In this document: positions 5,139 through 31,996 of the stretch, one piece after another
How positions within the stretch are numbered: position 1 is the first letter of the stretch
Layout of the letters: every line of letters starts with the position of its first letter
DNA from: Candidatus Bathyarchaeota archaeon B24-2
Lineage (GTDB): Archaea; Thermoproteota; Bathyarchaeia; Bathyarchaeales; B24-2
DNA: 34,656 nucleotides
NCBI GenBank assembly: GCA_002490245.1
Contig: PCNA01000002.1
Location: 1 to 34,656 of the forward strand
Reading direction: 5' to 3'
The notes under the pieces: model-generated
What the model saw: the letters and a program-made list of their open reading frames with translations, nothing else
What the model was told of the DNA's origin: nothing
The model's database searches: none
Made by a program: the position numbers and the translations under genes

Positions 5139-6157
5139 ATGCTGCAGGAACGTATAACTCGAGTTAATCTTTCGACCTCGACCCTCTTTATCTCTTTCCA
5201 GAAGTCTTTGTTCGGCACGTTATAGACTGGCCCGCTCACCCTCTCATTATAGAACGGTCTATTGCAGCCCGGACAGCCAGAAGTGATGAAAGGCTCTCCG
5301 GATTCTAGGATTTTATGTAGCCTTTCTCTCGGAAGCGGGAAGCACTCTATCTCTCCAGCCTCGTTGAACATTAGGTCTTCATAGCGAATTATCCTTTTAA
5401 CTATTAGGTAGCGGGCGACCTGTATCCTACGATAACTCTCTATCATGGGCGGTGTTAAATTTTCGAGTCTTGTGCCGGGGATCGGCGTGAAAGCAAAGAG
5501 CGCAGGTAGAATACCCCTATCGACGCACCACTGAATGGTCTTCACCATATCTCTCTCCTTCTCACCTAAACCGGCGATTAGGTGAGTCGTTACTTTACCT
5601 CTTCCGAAGACCTCGACCGCTTCGAGTAGGGCTTTAATTTGGCTTCCCCACCTATAAGGTCCATTAACTCCTGAGCCCTTAACTTTGTCGAACAACTCTT
5701 CTGTAGCGGCGTCGAGGGAGACTTCGATTCGCTCTAAACCAGCTTGCAATAATCTCTTCATGTATTCTTTAGGTAGAGGTTGAGAGGAGAGGGAGACTGG
5801 TATATCGGATATACTCTTTAACTCCGCCAGTATGTGAGCAACGTCTTCTAGAACCCCCTCATAATTCAAGGTTTGAATGCAGACCCTCTGAATTTTCCCT
5901 TCAGAGTACGCCGACGCTATTTTCCTCTTAACCTCGCTTAATGGAAACGGAGGCCAGCTGACCCTGGAGAGCAGATCCTCCCTAGCCTTACTGGACCTTG
6001 CCTGAGCGCAGAAGCCACAATTTGCGGTGCATTTCCCTTTGGTGTAAGTTAACAGGTACACGGTGGTGGGCGGAGCTTTCAGGAGACCTTTAACCAAACC
6101 TAGAACTATCGCAGACCCTATAGATACGCGTATAACTTCGGGCTTTCTTATAGTCAT
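5135..6157 (-). CDS. BioB-like radical SAM protein (COG2516 type), possible archaeal lipoyl synthase subunit
   Basis: A 340-residue radical SAM enzyme. The cluster motif is CTANCGFC (CxxxCxxC) near residues 43-50, followed by the BioB-type AQARSS. Seen later are SLDAATEELF, THLIAGLGE and FTPIPGTRLE, which fit a BioB/LipA-like barrel. The C-terminus carries SGCPGCNRPFYNE, an extra CxxC. This matches what is usually called a 'biotin synthase-related protein' in archaea. Related proteins have been shown to form the two-part lipoyl synthase LipS1/LipS2 in Thermococcus; whether this is one of them is a guess, since no partner is nearby. It starts at ATG 6157, 23 bases after hisI, so it may be the last gene of the his operon. 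Its TAG stop shares the palindrome CTAG with the aroC stop. Confidence 0.75.
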   Translation of the reverse strand: MTIRKPEVIRVSIGSAIVLGLVKGLLKAPPTTVYLLTYTKGKCTANCGFCAQARSSKAREDLLSRVSWPPFPLSEVKRKIASAYSEGKIQRVCIQTLNYEGVLEDVAHILAELKSISDIPVSLSSQPLPKEYMKRLLQAGLERIEVSLDAATEELFDKVKGSGVNGPYRWGSQIKALLEAVEVFGRGKVTTHLIAGLGEKERDMVKTIQWCVDRGILPALFAFTPIPGTRLENLTPPMIESYRRIQVARYLIVKRIIRYEDLMFNEAGEIECFPLPRERLHKILESGEPFITSGCPGCNRPFYNERVSGPVYNVPNKDFWKEIKRVEVERLTRVIRSCSI

Positions 6158-6180
6158 AATCTAGACACCCTTTTCTTCGC

Positions 6181-6543
6181 CTATAAGATAGGCTTATGGA
6201 AGCATGAGTATTTACCTGTGTGACAGCATGGTCCGATTTGTCGAACCTTGAAGAGGATAGCGTCGTTATCGCAGTCTAGTATCGCTTTTCTGAGTAGAGA
6301 ATAATGTTTACTGCTCTCGCCTTTAAGCCATATTCTTCGTCTAGTTCTACTCCAGTAGTGCATTAGCCCCGTTTCTAGGGTTAGGATTAAGGCCTCTCTG
6401 TTCATAAAGGCCTGCATTAACACCGCGCCTGTAGATTCGTCCTGAACGATTACTGGAACTAGACCATCTAGCTTCTCGAAGTTAACTTTATCTGCGATCC
6501 TTTCAGCTTCAGACCTACTTAACCTCAAAATCTGGAACCTCAC
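6181..6543 (-). CDS. hisI: Phosphoribosyl-AMP cyclohydrolase
   Basis: A 120-residue monofunctional cyclohydrolase that opens the purine ring of phosphoribosyl-AMP, the third step of histidine synthesis. Seen: VLMQAFMNREAL near residue 42, HYWSRTRRRIWLKGESS, the metal-binding ILDCDNDA, and the zinc cysteines in GPCCHTGKYSCF near residue 107. The usual TSG triplet reads SSK here. There is no fused HisE domain, and hisE is not in the window. It starts at GTG 6543, six bases after the hisA stop. It belongs to the minus-strand his operon. Confidence 0.95.
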   Translation of the reverse strand: MRFQILRLSRSEAERIADKVNFEKLDGLVPVIVQDESTGAVLMQAFMNREALILTLETGLMHYWSRTRRRIWLKGESSKHYSLLRKAILDCDNDAILFKVRQIGPCCHTGKYSCFHKPIL

Positions 6544-16403: not shown

Positions 16404-16949
16404 TTGAATTATGAAATGAGCTTGGAAGAGAGGAAAGCCCTTAATCTTTTGAAGCTTAGGGGTTATAAGGTGATCGAACGAACAGAGCAAGGAAAGGTGA
16501 TAAGCTTCTTAGCCGGTAAGAGAGGGAGAGGAAAAGCGCTAATCTGGTGTATACTCGACAGGATAATCGGTGTTGCGTATATAGATAGATTAAGGAAAGC
16601 CATGAAATCGAGCGGTGTAGAGGACGGGATAATAGTGGCCTGCAATCCATACACGTTCGCTGCTAAAAGAAAGGCGAGGCGCTACAAGATAGAGCTTATA
16701 CCTAGAAACTTTCCTACGTTCGATATCTTCAAACATAAACTCGTACCAAAACACGAGGTTCTTCCACCGAAAGAAAAGGAAATCCTACTGAAGAACTATC
16801 GCGTGGAATGTTATCAGCTTCCCATGATAAAATCTTCAGATATAGTGGCTGTGGCTATCGGAGCGAAGCCCGGAGATATCATAAAGGTGACTAGAGAAAG
16901 TCCTACCGCTGGTAAACACGTCTCCTATAGATACGTCGTGCCGGGATGA
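16404..16949 (+). CDS. rpoH: RNA polymerase subunit H with Rpb5-like N-terminal domain
   Basis: A 181-residue protein. Residues ~105-181 are a clear archaeal RpoH / eukaryotic Rpb5 C-terminal domain: FDIFKHKLVPKHEVLPPKEK, ending SPTAGKHVSYRYVV. Ordinary archaeal RpoH is only this ~80-residue domain. Here residues ~5-102 form an extra N-terminal domain: a helix with LLKLRGYKVIE, then GVAYIDRLRKAM, DGIIVACNPYTFAAKRKA and YKIELIP. This order matches the endonuclease-fold jaw domain of eukaryotic Rpb5 (and Mrr-type nucleases) but lacks an obvious D...ExK catalytic set. The start is TTG 16404 with AGAGGA upstream; ATG 16416 is an alternative. rpoB is not adjacent, unlike the common rpoH-rpoB order. 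Confidence 0.88.
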   Translation: MNYEMSLEERKALNLLKLRGYKVIERTEQGKVISFLAGKRGRGKALIWCILDRIIGVAYIDRLRKAMKSSGVEDGIIVACNPYTFAAKRKARRYKIELIPRNFPTFDIFKHKLVPKHEVLPPKEKEILLKNYRVECYQLPMIKSSDIVAVAIGAKPGDIIKVTRESPTAGKHVSYRYVVPG

Positions 16950-18417: not shown

Positions 18418-21400
18418 TTAGGTCTGTTTAGAAGGTTTTAAGAGGAAATTTTTCAGTATCGTTAAAATTTCGAACGACGTTATCAGAACGGCTAACGCTA
18501 TGATACAGGCCGTAAGCGATAACCGTAGTACGGTTGTTATAGAGGGCTGTGTTATCATCCCTACAACCGGTAATTCGTGTTCCGGAGCTTGGATTTTTGT
18601 TATGGTTAATGTTTGGGGCGTCGAATCCCACATTAGCTCTCCGTCTGAGGTTAAGGTTGGATCGGGTGTCGTGTCGAAGTTTTCCCATGAGCATGTGAGT
18701 ATGAGCTTGGTATTCTCTAGGGGTACTCCAAGCCTTGGTTTGAATGTTATGGTCAGATAGTCGCTGTGGAAGTCTGAGCTTGAAAGCTCGTCTATCTCTG
18801 TGATTTCTGCTCTCGCCGTAACAGGATCGACTATCATGTTCATGCTTTCCATCATGCTTCTATTAGCAGACAGCAACGTGCCTGACCCATATATTTCTAT
18901 GTATACGCTGCCTATCCTGTTTACATATACGCTTTCGTTTTCCATGTTGTATAGGAAGCGGCTTAACAGTAATTTGGGATAGTCGGTTTGGGTTAGATAG
19001 TAGATTAGGCTGTCGTTTGCGTTTTGGGTTAAGTGCATTATAATACTGACGTTTCCAGCCATAAGATGCTGGTCGTATTCTGGATAATACTTTCTTTGCC
19101 CCTCGACACGGTATTCGATGAGTCTTACATAGTTAAATACGCTTTCGTTACTGTTCAAAATTATGGGATCTATTATATCCGTTGTCGGTACACTAAATCG
19201 ACCGTGATAGCTGAGGCTTTTTGAAGTTACGTTCAAGCGTATTTCACCTGTACCTTGACTGCTGGTTTTGTTGGTTTCCACCCCGAAGCTTAATGCCTCC
19301 CGATAGTCTGTTGCCAACGTCCAGTTTGCCGGCGGGTCTAATAGAAGTATTCTAGCGGAGCATTCTGCAGGCCATGCGATCTGGTTGACCGACCAGTAAA
19401 CGACGTCGTTTACGGCTAGGAATACATTCAGTCCTGGTACGTAGTCTGCTACTTCGCATCCTGTATATATGTAGAACCCTAAGTCTCGAATCTGCTCGAA
19501 TACTGTGCTTCTGAAGTCTTCATCTGTTAAGAAGGCTTGAAGGCCCTGTTCAGGGGTCCAGTCTTCATGATGCCCTACTATCAGGGCTCTTAGGAAAGCC
19601 ATTATCAGAGGCTTTAGCGGTACGCCTGTTGCATGTGAGGCTGCTGTGAGGCCCAGTTCGAGCAAGTTTATCTCTAAGTTGTTTTCGAAGTCTACTTGAA
19701 CACCATAGTTTGGTAGCGAGTGTTCATACCATAATGTGTTCGACGCTGTTTCAGTTAGGGTATATCCCGGCGGTATCGTTCGAAGCCAGTCGAAGCTCGG
19801 TTCGGTGAGGTTTCCGTAGCGCCAGTCACGTAGGCCGTAGACCCTATACTTGTACCATATGTTTGCGAAGTTGTAGAGTTTAATCTTCATATCGTTACCG
19901 TCGATGGAGAGTAATTTGATTCCAGCTGCTATAGAACCCATAAGGCTTCTCCCCGCCGGTATTATCGACTGCGGAAGAGCTTTTTCAAAGGGGTGGATCG
20001 TAACCTCTTCAACGTTGTAGGGGAATGTTTTATGGAGAGTCCCGTCAGAAGTCTTATAATATATTTCTATATAGGAGGTTGTGTTTCCAGCAAACGTATT
20101 CTTAATTAGAAAGAAGAAGTATTGAGAAGAGTCTATCGTGATGAACTTGCTTGGCTTAAGAGTGTATGTAGGCAGAGGATTTAATTGAGAGATATGCTTT
20201 AATGCTTCACAGCTAAGTTTTAGGTCGGAAATTAAGTATGTTCCTTCTGTGGATCTACTAGCACAGTAAATACGGATGTTAGAGTGGAAGCATTCCCCGG
20301 TTTCGAGAACCCGATCCTCATCCGACGTCCAATAAACCCCGTAGTCTCCTTCTCTACCAAGCCATGTAACTCTGAATAGTGGGCCTCTATCGGCGTGGAA
20401 GCTCCCGGTTTTCAGGTCATACATGAAGCCTCCGAACAACGGCTCAGCTTTAACCGTCCAATTTTGATCTTCCCTGAAGCTTAATGGGTCAGGATACCAT
20501 CCTTTACCCTTTTCATACCGTGTTATCGGTATTTCAAAGTTGAATTCTGAAGTCGCATTAGCCTCTAGATAACTCATATACTTAGATTGAGCTTCTCCAT
20601 TCAATTCGAGGACTACCTTAACCCATCCGCTTGTATTGGCTGAGTTCTTAAGTCTTCCCGAAACTTTTACTATGTTTTCGTCGACCGTGTATGCTCTGGT
20701 AGGAGGATCTACCGTAACATCCACTATCTTGACCTCAAGGTTCTTCATCCTTAGGGTAGTGGAGGCGAAGCCAGTATTACCTCTGCTGTCTCGAGCCTCG
20801 ACCTCTAATGTATACTCTCCGTCTGGTATCTCGATGCTGTTAAAGTAGAAGAACCAAACCTTCCCCTTTAGATCACGTAGTGTGTCTTCTATACCCGCTT
20901 GGGATCCTATGATCCTAGAAACTTCGCTAGAAGTGGCTTCTCGTAGGTAAGCCTCCACAGGATTTTCTCCTTCACTCGTCAGCTTAGCGGTTATGTTCTC
21001 TATGACTCCTTCGAAGGATTCGGCGTAAATGCCTATTATGCCCTCTCCCCCAACGACCACGTAGCTTATAGGCGTAAACCATAAGTTGACGGTTCCCTTA
21101 GCCCCTCCGAGAGCCGTTAAACCTAGGATATTAACTTGAACGAATTTAGGATAAACTAGACATATTCTATCCACGCAATCCTCGAACAAGTATTCCGTTT
21201 GCTCAACATGCGCATTAAAGTCGTCTACATAATCTTCGACACACCACCCTAACTTTACTCGCATATTATGCTTATCTATGTTATCCGGTATAGGTATCAT
21301 GTATATACCCCAAGGATCCGCATAGCCAACCTCATATGGACCCCAGAACCTCTTACTCAAAGAGCCATATTCTCCACCCTTAATTCCTATGCTTACGCTG

Positions 21401-24400
21401 CTTCTATTGCCATTGTGGTCTTCGAACTCTATGATCAAGCTATATCTAGATGTGTCGTCGGGGTCAAAGCTCTCAAGCCACAGACCCCGATTATACACAT
21501 GTCTCGATACCTTCGGCACGTCGCCTATATGAACGAGTATAGCCTCGGCCCGGCCGGCGTCGAAAAACTGTGACGTCAACCACGTGGTCGAAACCGTATA
21601 GTCTTCGCCTCCCGTTGGAGGGCTGGTATAGAAGATCGCTGTATGCCCTACGACAAAGTTGCTTCCATGAAACACGTCGTATCCATGCCAGCTTGGCTGG
21701 TCTGGATAACTAGTCCACCAGTCCCCAGGCATTAAAACATAGTTTTCATAAGTTGTGTTTGCAGAGAGTCCCTGTGAACAATCGGTGTCGACCGTTAAGC
21801 TCCAGTTTAGCGGTATCCCTTGAGAGCCTTCTGTTTCGAAGTCGAAGTTTAGGTTTGGAGGGGCTGCGTAGATCCTAGCTGAAGAGCTATGAGACGCTCC
21901 TCCAGCGTCTATCACTAACACTTTTACGGTCATGACCGCGCCATAGTAGTCGTTAACCCTGAATTGAGCGGTGATCGTTGAGCCTTCTCCATCGTCGTAA
22001 TCGCCGTCATAGTCTAAGTCCCATAGGAAAACCAATGGAGCGTTTGTAATATCGATATCGAACCTCCTATCTCGAAAGCCTAGATCTGCACTCCACATCG
22101 GCGAGTCTCTTTCTAAAGCATACACGTCTACGCTTAAGTTCAAGGTATCCAAATAGAGTGCTTCCCGAGCGCTAGATAGTATATCTACCCGGAAAGGTAC
22201 AACATAGATTCGTCCTACATAAATGGGACACACGTTTCCTTCGCCGTCTATCAGCGTAAGCTTCACGCTGTAGGTGCCAGGCGACCAGAACGTGGCGTCG
22301 AAGAGCCCCTCTCGCCAGTCTTCTCCTAAGTCTATGTCGCATGAGCCCGTGTACGTTAATTTTACCGGATATTCTAAGCTCGTGAACTCTACTTGATAGT
22401 CGAGGCTTCCCCTCTCCCTACCGACCACTTTAAACGTGTAAGTCAACCCCTCATATACGTCGAGTGTGAAGTCAGGGAACTGAGGATTAAAACTCCTCTC
22501 TTCGTCGTGGTATTCATGGTATATTATGCTCATCTCGATGAATTGGGGAGGCCTATCCTGCACGATGATCTGATATGGGCCTATCACAGTCTCTCCGCCG
22601 TCGTCATCGACTATCCTAAAGTATACTGTGTAGTTGCCTGACTCAGGATAGCCCCAGTCGAAGCTTCTAAAACACTTGTTGTATAGCGGTATGGTGAGGT
22701 TGCTCTCTGCTCCCGGAGGCCTAAACGTATATGTAACAGTCTCCTTATCGCCTAACCAGCCTCCCGAGAGATCCCAGCCAACGCCCTGCGTGGAAACATA
22801 GACTGTAAAACTATCGTTTAGAGAGTCGCTCCAAACAACAGTCGCATGCACGCTTTCATCCTCATATATTGTAGTACTATCGAAGATGGCGGAGGCGTCC
22901 CAGGGAGCCTTATTTAAGACTTGAACGGTGATCGATGCTGAGCTCCAGGTCTGCCAGTCGTCATCAGCCGCCTGTAAAGTTACGTTCATCACCCCATCAT
23001 CCGAGAAGCTGTGTATTCCATACGTTAAAAACGGGGCTTGAGGGCAAGGTATGTCTGGATAGTAGGGCATTCCAGTGTCCACTATCTTTAAAGGCTCATA
23101 CTGTGGCCAGGGTTGATCGCTGAAGTAAAGCCATAAGTTTGGTATAGGGTTTCCTTCAGGCGAAGACACGTAACATGATATGTTAAGCGGCTCACCCTCA
23201 AAGCATGTCTGCTGAGCTGAAACGCTGACTGATAACGGAACGTTCTCGACGTAAACCTTTATCTGCTTTTCGTCGAATCCGCCGTCGTCGTCCTCAACCC
23301 TCAATACACACGTATAATAGATATCGTGGCCAAGCCAATAGTAGGGTAAAACACTCCACGTATGTTTCACGATGGGGCCTTGAGCGTCGAATTCTCCGTC
23401 TCCGTCTAGATCCCAGAGATACGTCAACTCGTCACATCCGGGGTCGCTTACTATGGCCGTTATCGTAGCCTCTACTCCTTGGGTTACGTTGACCTCCGAT
23501 GGGCCTACTATGACCGGCGGCACGTTATAGACAGTTACCTCTATGCTATCGCTGTCGGTTAGGCCTTCGTCATCGAGGACCGTTAGGGTAACATTGTACA
23601 CTCCGTTATCGCACCAAGAGACCTCCAGTAGAGGCTGTGTTACGTTGGCGTCTATATCTCCATCGCCGTTTAGATCCCAGAGATAGAACCTTATGGATCC
23701 GTCGTCGTAGCTCAAGGTGGCGTTTAAGGTTACGACATCGCCTTCATTACAGGTTATATCGCTTCCGGCGTCTGCGTGAGGCTTGTATCCCGGTACACTA
23801 AAGTAGACGGTCGACGATGATTGGAGGCCGCCGAGGTCGCAGGCATAGAGGGTTAGAGTATGGTCTCCTTTGCTTACGGCTATAGTTGTGTTGCCTGTTA
23901 TGGTGACGTTGGCCGCGGAGTCTAGGCTGTATCTAACCCACTGTACGGGTTTATCGACATGATAGGTTAACGGTATCTGCGGACTATAGTATGTGCTCAT
24001 GTTGGTCGGTGAGATTATAGTGATGTTCGGCGGATAAACGACCGTTACGAGAGGCCCTATAATGCATCCGCATGCAGGCTCTCTGGCCGGCGAGAAGTAG
24101 TAGTGAGGCATCTCCACATAGTTTGAAATGACAGGTATACTTACAGTTGCGTTGTAATCGTAGGCTGCGACCGCACAGTAGTATTGGCCGACCGTTAAGT
24201 TTAGCTGGCAGCTGTAGGTGCAGTAGAGAGATCCTTGATCCATGTAGCAGTCTTGTTCAACCATATCATATACGGAGCCGTTGATCCACAACTTAACGAA
24301 GGCCGGTGGGTCTCCGTCTTCATCCACGTAAGTCACGGTGAAGTTGAAGGGAGTCGTTTCGCTTCCAGTTTGAGGGGTGAAGGAGAAGTCATATAGTCTA

Positions 24401-26301
24401 GGAGCGTGATTTTGGGGGCATGAATTATTACATAAACAGTTCTCGAATAAGTCTTCAACATAAACATACCATGCAGTGTTATCCGTAATATTGTTTCCAG
24501 AGGTTTCAACATATATGTCTGGACTTCCTCTATAGTAATATCCACTCCACTCATATTCGTGTGGCTTCTCATAGAGGTATACCGTAACGTTGTTTCCTGA
24601 AACGTCGCAGTCACGGCTAGGCTCGTAGATCGCTATACCGATCGGCGTGAGGGTTTCAGGATATGTAGGATTGCATATCTTATTCCCCTTTATTATGGAG
24701 TTATTCGAGCCACCGTTGACTTCGACTCCCGCATAGCTGAACATGGTTATCGTATTGTTTTCGACCAGCGTGCCGTTCGACTTATAGATGGTAATCCCAT
24801 AATTGATGGATTCAGAGTTTGGATGGATTACGTTATTTGAGATCGATACATTAAAGGAATTTTCACACTCTATACCTGTGCCCCCGTCTCTAGGTTTAAG
24901 GTCGTTACCTAAGATCTTGACATGGGATGCATGGTCTAGGCGTACGGCTTCGGCGAACGCCGATACATTATTTTGAGTTAGGTTGATTATGTATGAAAAT
25001 GTGGGATCGCAGTCTCTGACCTCTATGCCGTAGGTGTTCGTTTTCCCGGAGCCTGTTAGGTTGTTATCTAAGACCTCTATGACTCCTAGATTCCATACAC
25101 CTTCTATTTCGACACCGTTATCGCAGTTAACGGTGTTTAGGTTTACCGTGACGTTTGAGGAAGCGACGATGCTTAAGCCTAATGAGTATCCTGAAACGTT
25201 ATTGTTCGTTATCGTCGTGTCTATTGCTCCTGAAACTTGTATGGCAGTCTGTTCCGTCCAGTCTCCCTCTATGCTGTTCTCATTAATAGTTGAGTCTATA
25301 AGGTCTATGAGGCTTATCGGGTATGTGCAACCGTAGACCGCGTTATGCTGTAAAGTTACGTCTGTATTATTGTATCCTTCAAAGCCGACGGTCTCGTATC
25401 CGCTACTTCCTGTAACGTAGTTGTTTTCAAGTAAGATGTTTCTACAGCTCTCGATCGTGAACGCCGATGAGAAGACTCTCTCGTCGACATAGTCGAAAGT
25501 TAGGAGCGCAGTATTTCTTTCTACGGTTATGTTTTCACATAGCAGAAAGTAATAGCATTCAACCTGTCTGTCAACGTCGTTGAGAGCCACGGTTACATTC
25601 TTAGAATCCTGAATCACGAAGCCATACTGGTATGGAGGTAAAAACCCGTTTGCTGTATCGTCGAGGACTACATTTCCCTTTAAGAGTAAGCCGTCTGCAT
25701 TAATCGCCGTTAGGGCTGTTTGATGGTTTTGGAAGGAGCATCCTTCTACTATGGCGTTTCGGGTACCATTAAGGATTAAGCTACTATAGAGGCAGTGGTT
25801 GAAAGTTGTTCCGTTAAGCTCGACGGATCCGCCCTCAACATATATGCCTGCACTCTGAGGGTCGTCCTTAAGTTCGGTGTAGCCTACATAAGAGACGATA
25901 CTGTTGACTATCCTCAACCGTCCTCCCTTAACCCTGACGAAAAAGCGGTCTGGAACCATCACTTCGGGAGGACTGTAACCAGTTATTCTGGAAGGGTCTC
26001 CGTTATTGTCAGATACGTTTAAGAAACCGTTACTGAGCACTTCTATGCCATGTGGAGACTCGACTGGGCTTATCACGTATAGGGTTACGTTCTCGAGATT
26101 TAGAGTAGCGTTCACATGCAACGTGCCGTTTAAGTATATTATCTCATCGGTTATTGTGGTGTCTTGATTGATGAACCAGTCGCCGTTAATCTGCTGTTCA
26201 GCTGCCACCTCACGCAAATCTAACGTTAAAGCGTACATTACGATTAGGATAAATATGAATAATAAAGCGGTAATATATGCGTCTTTATCTTTAAGCCGCA
26301 T
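18418..26301 (-). CDS. Giant membrane-anchored surface protein: beta-helix, Ig-like and PKD domains
   Basis: A single 2627-residue frame. Residues ~10-35 are a signal peptide or anchor (ITALLFIFILIVMYALTL). Residues ~40-625 are right-handed parallel beta-helix repeats of the NosD/PbH1 type, with many turns such as NNVSGYSLGLSIV and ENNTITMFSYAGVEV. Residues ~630-835 are two Ig/fibronectin-like domains. PKD or PKD-like domains follow at about 837-925, 925-1017, 1017-1130, 1130-1248, 1248-1369 and 1369-1480, several with calcium-loop-like WDLNGDGDID, WDLDGDGEFD and WDLDYDGDYDDG. Residues ~1483-1720 look like a jelly-roll carbohydrate-binding domain (FETEGSQGIPLNW). The rest to ~2585 is beta-rich and unrecognised. 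Residues ~2590-2612 are a membrane helix with a basic tail. N-x-S/T sequons are very frequent. Role inferred: cell-surface binding or adhesion; no catalytic site seen. Confidence 0.85.
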   Translation of the reverse strand: MRLKDKDAYITALLFIFILIVMYALTLDLREVAAEQQINGDWFINQDTTITDEIIYLNGTLHVNATLNLENVTLYVISPVESPHGIEVLSNGFLNVSDNNGDPSRITGYSPPEVMVPDRFFVRVKGGRLRIVNSIVSYVGYTELKDDPQSAGIYVEGGSVELNGTTFNHCLYSSLILNGTRNAIVEGCSFQNHQTALTAINADGLLLKGNVVLDDTANGFLPPYQYGFVIQDSKNVTVALNDVDRQVECYYFLLCENITVERNTALLTFDYVDERVFSSAFTIESCRNILLENNYVTGSSGYETVGFEGYNNTDVTLQHNAVYGCTYPISLIDLIDSTINENSIEGDWTEQTAIQVSGAIDTTITNNNVSGYSLGLSIVASSNVTVNLNTVNCDNGVEIEGVWNLGVIEVLDNNLTGSGKTNTYGIEVRDCDPTFSYIINLTQNNVSAFAEAVRLDHASHVKILGNDLKPRDGGTGIECENSFNVSISNNVIHPNSESINYGITIYKSNGTLVENNTITMFSYAGVEVNGGSNNSIIKGNKICNPTYPETLTPIGIAIYEPSRDCDVSGNNVTVYLYEKPHEYEWSGYYYRGSPDIYVETSGNNITDNTAWYVYVEDLFENCLCNNSCPQNHAPRLYDFSFTPQTGSETTPFNFTVTYVDEDGDPPAFVKLWINGSVYDMVEQDCYMDQGSLYCTYSCQLNLTVGQYYCAVAAYDYNATVSIPVISNYVEMPHYYFSPAREPACGCIIGPLVTVVYPPNITIISPTNMSTYYSPQIPLTYHVDKPVQWVRYSLDSAANVTITGNTTIAVSKGDHTLTLYACDLGGLQSSSTVYFSVPGYKPHADAGSDITCNEGDVVTLNATLSYDDGSIRFYLWDLNGDGDIDANVTQPLLEVSWCDNGVYNVTLTVLDDEGLTDSDSIEVTVYNVPPVIVGPSEVNVTQGVEATITAIVSDPGCDELTYLWDLDGDGEFDAQGPIVKHTWSVLPYYWLGHDIYYTCVLRVEDDDGGFDEKQIKVYVENVPLSVSVSAQQTCFEGEPLNISCYVSSPEGNPIPNLWLYFSDQPWPQYEPLKIVDTGMPYYPDIPCPQAPFLTYGIHSFSDDGVMNVTLQAADDDWQTWSSASITVQVLNKAPWDASAIFDSTTIYEDESVHATVVWSDSLNDSFTVYVSTQGVGWDLSGGWLGDKETVTYTFRPPGAESNLTIPLYNKCFRSFDWGYPESGNYTVYFRIVDDDGGETVIGPYQIIVQDRPPQFIEMSIIYHEYHDEERSFNPQFPDFTLDVYEGLTYTFKVVGRERGSLDYQVEFTSLEYPVKLTYTGSCDIDLGEDWREGLFDATFWSPGTYSVKLTLIDGEGNVCPIYVGRIYVVPFRVDILSSAREALYLDTLNLSVDVYALERDSPMWSADLGFRDRRFDIDITNAPLVFLWDLDYDGDYDDGEGSTITAQFRVNDYYGAVMTVKVLVIDAGGASHSSSARIYAAPPNLNFDFETEGSQGIPLNWSLTVDTDCSQGLSANTTYENYVLMPGDWWTSYPDQPSWHGYDVFHGSNFVVGHTAIFYTSPPTGGEDYTVSTTWLTSQFFDAGRAEAILVHIGDVPKVSRHVYNRGLWLESFDPDDTSRYSLIIEFEDHNGNRSSVSIGIKGGEYGSLSKRFWGPYEVGYADPWGIYMIPIPDNIDKHNMRVKLGWCVEDYVDDFNAHVEQTEYLFEDCVDRICLVYPKFVQVNILGLTALGGAKGTVNLWFTPISYVVVGGEGIIGIYAESFEGVIENITAKLTSEGENPVEAYLREATSSEVSRIIGSQAGIEDTLRDLKGKVWFFYFNSIEIPDGEYTLEVEARDSRGNTGFASTTLRMKNLEVKIVDVTVDPPTRAYTVDENIVKVSGRLKNSANTSGWVKVVLELNGEAQSKYMSYLEANATSEFNFEIPITRYEKGKGWYPDPLSFREDQNWTVKAEPLFGGFMYDLKTGSFHADRGPLFRVTWLGREGDYGVYWTSDEDRVLETGECFHSNIRIYCASRSTEGTYLISDLKLSCEALKHISQLNPLPTYTLKPSKFITIDSSQYFFFLIKNTFAGNTTSYIEIYYKTSDGTLHKTFPYNVEEVTIHPFEKALPQSIIPAGRSLMGSIAAGIKLLSIDGNDMKIKLYNFANIWYKYRVYGLRDWRYGNLTEPSFDWLRTIPPGYTLTETASNTLWYEHSLPNYGVQVDFENNLEINLLELGLTAASHATGVPLKPLIMAFLRALIVGHHEDWTPEQGLQAFLTDEDFRSTVFEQIRDLGFYIYTGCEVADYVPGLNVFLAVNDVVYWSVNQIAWPAECSARILLLDPPANWTLATDYREALSFGVETNKTSSQGTGEIRLNVTSKSLSYHGRFSVPTTDIIDPIILNSNESVFNYVRLIEYRVEGQRKYYPEYDQHLMAGNVSIIMHLTQNANDSLIYYLTQTDYPKLLLSRFLYNMENESVYVNRIGSVYIEIYGSGTLLSANRSMMESMNMIVDPVTARAEITEIDELSSSDFHSDYLTITFKPRLGVPLENTKLILTCSWENFDTTPDPTLTSDGELMWDSTPQTLTITKIQAPEHELPVVGMITQPSITTVLRLSLTACIIALAVLITSFEILTILKNFLLKPSKQT

Positions 26302-26508
26302 ATATGACCCCGCTTCTCTAACTGTAGGGCCTCTTATAGAACCTAGAAGAGAAGTAGCTCTTCTAAGGCTCCGGAATGAAGTTTTTTCAGAAAATTATTT
26401 AAATCTTTCTATGATATCGAATTTTTGAGAAAAATGGGTTTAAGCGATTATTCGAAGTTAAGGTTTGAAAATAGAACACTTAATCATTCGTCTATTTCAA
26501 TTAATTCG

Positions 26509-30967: not shown

Positions 30968-31996
30968 GTGTTGGAGCATATGTGGAAGAAATATTCGTTC
31001 TGGCAGGGTTTACCCCCACCTCAATACATCTTTAAGAACCTTAGATTTATAGGTGTGGCGCTTGAACCACCAGACTGGAAGCCTGGATCATGGTGTGGAG
31101 CTGGAAAGGCTATCATAGATTATGAGAACGAGGAATACCTCCTAACCTCTAGACCTCGAAAAATAGAGGGTGGAGCCCGTGGCTACGCTGCCGAAATATA
31201 CAGGTCGAAGGACGGCGTAAAGTTTAGCTTAGTCTCGAAGATAACTAAGGAGGAGGTTACAGAGAAAAGCGGGATAAAGGTTTGGAGCATAGAGGGAACT
31301 CAACTACTTAAGGATCCTCTAACCGGTAATTGGCACTTTTATCTTTCAGTCGATACGGGGCCTGAGTACGTCGTAGGCGGAGTTTTCTGGGATACTATGC
31401 TATTCGTTTCAGACGACCTGAAAGGACCATGGAAATATAAGGGCTTCGCTATAAGGCGTGGGCATGGACGGGTATTCGATTCTGTTCAAGCAAGAAATGC
31501 GACGATAGACATAATTGACGGGTTATGGATGGCTATATATAGGGCGACAGACCTCGATTGGAGATACAGAATGGGTTTGGCGGTAAGCTCAGACGGCATC
31601 TACTGGGAGAAGAAGGGACCGTTCACCGTCGACGGAACGGCTGAGCATACACACTTCGCGACGATGGGCTCGATCTTCCCCGGCTCTCTAGGTCCGGTTC
31701 TCATAGGGCTAACGTGGCGTAACCAGCAGGGCAGAATAGTAGTGGACTTCACGGCTTACCGGGTCGACGACTTGAACATGAACCTTCAAACCATCTTCCG
31801 CGCTCCTTGGACGGCGAGGTCTAAATACGAGGATAAAGAGAGACCGACTTATGGACACTACTGCACTCTGGTTCACGATAGACTCCGGAACAGGATTCTC
31901 TTCTACCTCTCAGCCGTCGACCCTCGTCCAGAGACGAAGAAAGAAGGGTGGACCGAAGTTTGTGTGAGAGAGCTAGTCTATGAATGTCCACTCTAA
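30968..31996 (+). CDS. Beta-propeller glycosidase-like protein (GH43/GH32/GH130-like)
   Basis: A 342-residue cytoplasmic-looking protein with no signal peptide. Repeated blade-like strands (SKDGVKFSLVSKI, VSDDLKGPWKYKGFA, VSSDGIYWEKKGPF) are typical of five-bladed propeller glycosidases and phosphorylases, where a bound sugar sits at the axis. WSIEGTQLLKDPLTGNWHFY near residue 110 and DLDWRYRMGLAVSSDGIYW near residue 195 fit that fold. I cannot assign a GH family or name the catalytic acids with confidence. GTG 30968 has GGAG nine bases upstream; ATG 30980 is an alternative. It follows the nucleotidyltransferase by 98 bases. Confidence 0.6.
   Translation: MLEHMWKKYSFWQGLPPPQYIFKNLRFIGVALEPPDWKPGSWCGAGKAIIDYENEEYLLTSRPRKIEGGARGYAAEIYRSKDGVKFSLVSKITKEEVTEKSGIKVWSIEGTQLLKDPLTGNWHFYLSVDTGPEYVVGGVFWDTMLFVSDDLKGPWKYKGFAIRRGHGRVFDSVQARNATIDIIDGLWMAIYRATDLDWRYRMGLAVSSDGIYWEKKGPFTVDGTAEHTHFATMGSIFPGSLGPVLIGLTWRNQQGRIVVDFTAYRVDDLNMNLQTIFRAPWTARSKYEDKERPTYGHYCTLVHDRLRNRILFYLSAVDPRPETKKEGWTEVCVRELVYECPL

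Follow-up and report, generated by a model that had tools for sequence, protein, structure and literature searches.

The window analysed in this study (the whole stretch of 34,656 bases, contig C48 of G000, an archaeal MAG, probably of the Bathyarchaeia, of 1,347,170 bases in 92 contigs that is 97.94% complete) encodes a giant protein of 2627 residues. This protein is best explained as a surface stalk or adhesin: it joins a beta-helix and a chain of PKD/Ig-type modules, two kinds of module found widely in the order, to a C-terminal membrane helix. The frame, the beta-helix, the PKD/Ig chain and the C-terminal hydrophobic segment were all computed. We give roughly even chances to the more specific proposal that the protein is a membrane-held surface stalk with a distal beta-helix head that would probably bind polysaccharide.

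The giant frame is real. The initial annotation had described one unbroken 7.9-kb frame, and this was borne out by translation and the ORF list at exactly 18418-26301, on the minus strand, which had been left unstated. The plus-strand reading of this interval is full of stops, and the longest other listed ORF within it has 101 aa. In 11 consecutive blocks of the frame, synonymous codon usage (mean ln RSU) ranged from -1.07 to -1.22 and thus stayed inside the range of the 19 other window genes (-1.07 to -1.29), the same set from which the reference was taken. GC3 was 0.46-0.57, compared with 0.47-0.55 in these genes. Since codon usage is even and like that of the window genes, the composition carries no sign of a chimera, and the assembly fusion that had been raised as an objection found no compositional backing. 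A scan for bacterial-type promoters did no better on the window than on shuffled sequences (15 versus 14.8).

From the N- to the C-terminus, the protein consists of a hydrophobic segment, a beta-helix, an Ig module, a PKD/Ig chain, residues 1483-1720, a weak Ig region, an orphan block and a membrane helix with a basic tail. The features are as follows; scores from our own Ig and PKD profiles are biased towards the giant protein, as its modules were used to recruit them.

26395-26405, minus strand: TATA-like element (by eye), gatttaaataa, some 95-105 bases upstream of the ATG
18418-26301, minus strand: gene of the giant, presumed surface protein (2627 aa), beginning with ATG and with its stop codon at 18418-18420 (translation, even codon usage)
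26221-26277, minus strand: hydrophobic N-terminal segment, residues 9-27, hydropathy 2.54; signal peptide or anchor
24382-26184, minus strand: right-handed beta-helix with N-terminal cap, residues ~40-640 (Pfam NosD and Beta_helix; outer limits by eye)
23794-24033, minus strand: Ig-like module common in the order, residues 757-836 (profile of 46 stretches, 107 bits)
23530-23784, minus strand: PKD domain, residues 840-924 (PKD_4, 1.5e-22; own PKD profile, 58.9 bits at 851-919)
23272-23427, minus strand: second PKD-like module with DLDGDG, residues 959-1010 (own PKD profile, 14.5 bits; motif)
21883-23013, minus strand: four degenerate PKD/Ig-like modules, residues 1097-1473 (short profile matches; PKD_4, 27.4 bits)
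21142-21855, minus strand: possible jelly-roll domain, residues 1483-1720 (start and end motifs by eye alone; no profile support)
20587-21012, minus strand: weak Ig-like region, residues ~1764-1905, perhaps to 1960 (Y_Y_Y and Big_13 below cut-off; phmmer; weak genome matches)
18547-20409, minus strand: orphan block, residues 1965-2585, with a possible helix-rich part at ~2209-2273 (no Pfam or PDB sequence matches at E<=10; no credible relative in the genomes searched)
18454-18522, minus strand: C-terminal membrane helix, residues ~2594-2616 (hydropathy peak 2.47 for 2598-2616), followed by a basic tail

The protein had been proposed to be anchored at both ends. At the C-terminus a membrane helix is supported by hydropathy; at the N-terminus an anchor is one of two readings, as residues 9-27 may instead be a signal peptide with a possible VAA|E cleavage site (by eye). 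The beta-helix, proposed as NosD-like and about 600 residues long, was confirmed by two Pfam profiles, Beta_helix (2.3e-21, 76.5 bits, best stretch 439-578, searched with the whole protein) and NosD (1.8e-15, 57.4 bits, best stretch 171-344). Rung periodicity was not significant in a simple autocorrelation. The NosD copper-maturation protein (TIGR04247) was rejected as an identity, with 29.4 bits against a cut-off of 300, the beta-helix fold being shared.

Several PKD domains with calcium-loop-like DxDxDG motifs had been expected behind the beta-helix. One of them is strong (PKD_4, 79.8 bits, best stretch 840-924) and a second is moderate. The four others are degenerate, with profile matches at 1097-1118, 1217-1236, 1335-1356 and 1425-1473 of at most 8.2 bits each; on the whole piece 1111-1480, PKD_4 reached 27.4 bits versus a cut-off of 27. 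The ends of the modules are spaced 91-120 residues apart, which suggests worn copies. The motif DxDxD[GY] occurs exactly twice (964 and 1428), and a DLNGDG variant was seen by eye at 876. The profiles used here were built from 97 PKD stretches of relatives, recruited with the protein's own PKD, and from 46 Ig stretches of fetched loci, recruited with the Ig module 757-836, and their E-values were computed for one protein only.

For residues 1483-1720 a probable carbohydrate-binding jelly roll had been suggested, and this assignment was not confirmed. The segment has no Pfam match even at E<=10 and no meaningful PDB sequence match, and among 255 other genomes of the class it gave seven non-self matches, all weak (best E 4.7e-4, 35% over 65 residues). 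Two of the seven were inspected as candidate relatives and neither was convincing. The part that follows, residues ~1764-1905, matched three giants of the order by phmmer (E 7e-7 to 1e-9) in a set of 25 frames, namely those of at least 600 residues in 18 stretches from relatives picked for beta-helix/PKD or weak C-terminal matches. Within it, residues 1814-1850 resemble Big_13 and Y_Y_Y of Pfam, both below the curated cut-offs. AlphaFold, run on the single sequence of residues 1478-1967, gave no usable model (mean pLDDT 42.2). Most of the chains retrieved with it by Foldseek were adhesins or of Ig/Fn3 type, interspersed with unrelated ones (TM by query length <=0.22 and rmsd >=8.9 in the 50 rows listed), a result that is at most consistent with Ig modules.

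The orphan block, residues 1965-2585, makes up about a quarter of the protein (~620 residues). It has no match in Pfam and no PDB sequence match, both at E<=10. A single-sequence AlphaFold prediction of the block was not usable (mean pLDDT 31.6), and the helices at ~2209-2273 are known from that model only. With the C-terminal 900 aa as query, three other same-order genomes (of 161) and 6/255 in the class gave matches, all of them within 1764-1905; no credible relative of the block was found in the 255 other class genomes by this query. In 397 other sampled genomes of the phylum the block gave 12 weak non-self matches and no credible relative; seven of them contain stops, including the best (E 5e-4). 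Of the other five, three were inspected and are, judged by eye, a helicase, an aminotransferase resembling cysteine desulfurase and a regulator-like protein that binds ATP, none of them a credible relative. There was likewise no significant match of the block to the 25 large frames of relatives (phmmer, best E 0.2), and none of residues 1468-2585 to phages and plasmids at E<=0.01. Of the ~850 C-terminal residues called unassignable, 1965-2585 thus remain so, and ~1764-1905 look Ig-like. A known enzyme family in the C-terminal third, which would have changed the role of the protein, was searched for in Pfam, PDB and the phylum genomes and not found. Behind the C-terminal helix follows the basic tail KNFLLKPSKQT; a PEF/PGF-CTERM-type sorting signal was not detected at the C-terminus among the three NCBIfam families listed (E<=1). 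It is tempting to speculate that the orphan block represents a new domain family confined to this lineage, which would lie close to the membrane, be rich in beta structure apart from a helical part, and link the stalk with the membrane or with partners in the envelope in an unprecedented way, but we hold this to be doubtful.

In the stalk model, the giant protein would be a secreted envelope protein whose C-terminal helix keeps it in the membrane. Its N-terminal beta-helix would form the distal functional head, borne outward on about eight PKD/Ig-type modules, with the orphan block at the membrane-proximal end. The protein would most likely bind polysaccharide of a sheath, of the extracellular matrix or of neighbouring cells, and so attach the cell to what surrounds it. 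That the protein is exported, oriented in this way, shaped like a stalk, bound to such a ligand and active in adhesion is inferred from the module families. In favour of this model are the abundance of beta-helix and PKD domains in the order, the large frames of relatives with hydrophobic segments near both ends, the sub-threshold sugar-related matches in another beta-helix giant of the own genome, and the S-layer and sheath of a cultivated Bathyarchaeum, all described below. Of the roles first suggested (stalk-like adhesin, sheath or polysaccharide-capture protein), the surface stalk or adhesin is the one best favoured, although the results would fit a sheath or S-layer component too, and polysaccharide capture is a function that we infer.

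Alternatively, the protein might be the building block of a lattice or sheath. Its copies would then pack via their PKD/Ig chains, in the manner of archaeal S-layers, and the C-terminal helices would fasten this layer to the membrane. Surface-layer proteins of archaea are reported to contain PKD and beta-helix domains (Jing et al. 2002, Structure 10:1453), and in a cultivated Bathyarchaeum an S-layer is accompanied by an outer sheath, the latter described as probably protein or polysaccharide (PMC10477458). However, a main S-layer protein is expected to be recognisable in related genomes, even though S-layer proteins diverge fast, and no full-length relative was found in 60 genomes of the same order, which belong to other families than the source genome. 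We therefore consider a lattice unlikely, if the least so of the alternatives. The giant protein matches somewhere in 43/60 of these genomes (44/61 with its own); among the matches listed, all except its own gene fall in the Ig/PKD stretch ~707-1057, many of them on the Ig module 757-836. Pattern scans of genome contigs and viral contigs gave no match. The protein thus appears to be lineage-specific in sequence. Its module families are common, with Beta_helix matches in 49/61 and PKD_4 matches in 47/61 genomes of the order (own included).

Other giants of the order (for example L158, L159, L160, L150 and L149) are built from the same module families. Unlike the giant protein, several of them end dockerin-like or with PEF-type tails (by eye), and 0/25 of the relatives' frames match 1965-2585 significantly. 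Strong hydrophobic segments near both ends are present in five of the 25 (L150, L155, L157, L162 and L165). The open frame L149 in the same-order genome G001 has 3368 aa with a beta-helix and is longer than the giant protein. By eye, L151, L153, L159, L160 and L161, all giant frames of relatives with PKD or beta-helix domains, have tails that look dockerin-like.

Beta-helices often belong to polysaccharide enzymes. Potentially, the giant might be a cell-bound enzyme that degrades polysaccharide, in which the beta-helix, with a pectate-lyase fold, would act as lyase or hydrolase and the remainder would supply carbohydrate-binding and spacer modules. Besides the giant protein, its own genome encodes one other beta-helix frame, on contig C36 (L196, 2-5551, minus strand), a second giant of at least 1850 aa that runs into the contig end. 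The beta-helix of this C36 protein aligns with residues 44-199 of the giant protein (29%, E 3e-8). It is joined to an N-terminal part with sub-threshold GH42-type matches, and the protein also has sub-threshold Ig and carbohydrate-module matches; therefore, the beta-helices of this organism may have a part in sugar chemistry. However, the generic Beta_helix and NosD models are the sole Pfam models above cut-off in the beta-helix piece, and residues 38-690 have no PDB sequence match at E<=1. We regard an enzyme as rather improbable and prefer the membrane-held stalk.

As first noted, the giant gene has no evident partner on its strand. The nearest same-strand gene, 203 bases downstream, encodes an MFS_1 transporter, and the upstream, divergent neighbour encodes a membrane protein with DUF4013 and a zinc ribbon. 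Beyond the latter lie a lactate-racemase-type gene on the giant's strand, a gene of APS-kinase type and a nucleotidyltransferase with a 342-aa protein beside it. This 342-aa protein (30968-31996, plus strand) matched no Pfam family at E<=1 and nothing meaningful among the PDB sequences; by eye only, it has the look of a glycoside-hydrolase propeller. Finally, it is very improbable that the giant is a variable recognition or conflict protein like VARTIG of Thermococcales with the orphan block as its variable part: it is large and Ig-rich, and the class and phylum genomes searched held no credible relative of its C-terminal block, but an Ig-bearing downstream gene is absent, the next same-strand gene being the MFS transporter, and VARTIG varies in its last Ig domain, whereas the orphan block has no Ig match.

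The window also carries rpoH (16404-16949, plus strand), which encodes a 181-aa RpoH/Rpo5 with an Mrr_cat-like N-terminal domain (E 7.5e-7) joined to Rpb5_C. A short RpoH is given as the archaeal rule (PMC3906176), and the window copy departs from it. A profile of 12 long RpoH sequences (the window copy and 11 of 12 fetched stretches, one being the genome's own second copy), in which the N-terminal part was scored jointly, aligned at positions 33-186 with residues 49-205 of eukaryotic Rpb5 (7eu0_E); the alignment thus reaches into the N-terminal domain of Rpb5. Searched alone against PDB, the N-terminal domain (104 aa) returned no Rpb5 chain at E<=10, and a nuclease metal-site motif was not evident in it by eye. 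RpoH matches were found in 55/61 genomes of the order (own included), and among the matches listed G042 alone matched by the C-terminal domain only; most of the 61 genomes list one match. A second full-length RpoH in the own genome (contig 58 of G000, 5991-6527, L190) is 51% identical to the window copy. In the phylum sample (376/398 with a match), the full-length matches among those listed came from same-order genomes and G225 of the class, and those from other groups start at about residue 65-109. Fifteen of 17 named genomes matched, ten of them with the C-terminal part only or nearly so. Full-length forms were present in Bathyarchaeota ex4484_135, Jordarchaeia, Freyarchaeota, Helarchaeota and a Heimdallarchaeota MAG (L097), the MAG ex4484_135 being the best of the 17 (46% over 9-179). 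The window's L15e likewise has its best E-value with ex4484_135 (67% over 1-185), but Desulfurococcales MAGs reach 72% over a shorter stretch, and the scan covered contigs with a shared exact short peptide; L15e alone is a weak guide, and with RpoH added the genome is probably one of the Bathyarchaeia. The literature searched on this long form, as far as its accessible parts go, holds no report of RpoH with an Mrr_cat-like domain. The gene order around rpoH was not kept in 11 stretches from relatives, several of which were ended by contig ends; the only matches near rpoH were one to APS kinase (L189), a weak one to MFS (L183) and weak ones to shikimate kinase (L182, L187).

Archaeal surface-layer proteins are said to carry PKD and beta-helix domains. 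The title of the 2002 paper also names a beta-propeller, which is present in some archaeal beta-helix/PKD surface proteins only. The giant protein shares with this kind the combination of a beta-helix and PKD domains in one large, probably exported protein, and hydropathy predicts a membrane anchor for it. No beta-propeller model of Pfam matched the whole protein at E<=1; one piece gave a weak NHL match (E 0.056). Bathyarchaeia are unmentioned among the matches listed in the literature on such proteins, and in the accessible parts of the literature on Bathyarchaeota and the PKD domain, the PKD-named proteins belong to another archaeal group. VARTIG proteins are, like the giant, large, predicted to be secreted and Ig-rich. 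Their gene opens an operon in which the genes that follow bear Ig domains, and the available part of their description does not mention a beta-helix, whereas the giant protein has one and no Ig partners were seen (PMC8416519). Surface proteins decide the attachment, the sheath building and the polysaccharide contact of hardly cultivated archaea, and few of them are assigned. The giant protein adds an extreme example that is otherwise ordinary for its order. In the best reading of its sequence, it would belong to the archaeal beta-helix/PKD surface proteins and differ from them in the 620-residue block before its membrane helix, a quarter of the protein without assignable family that is its unexplained part.
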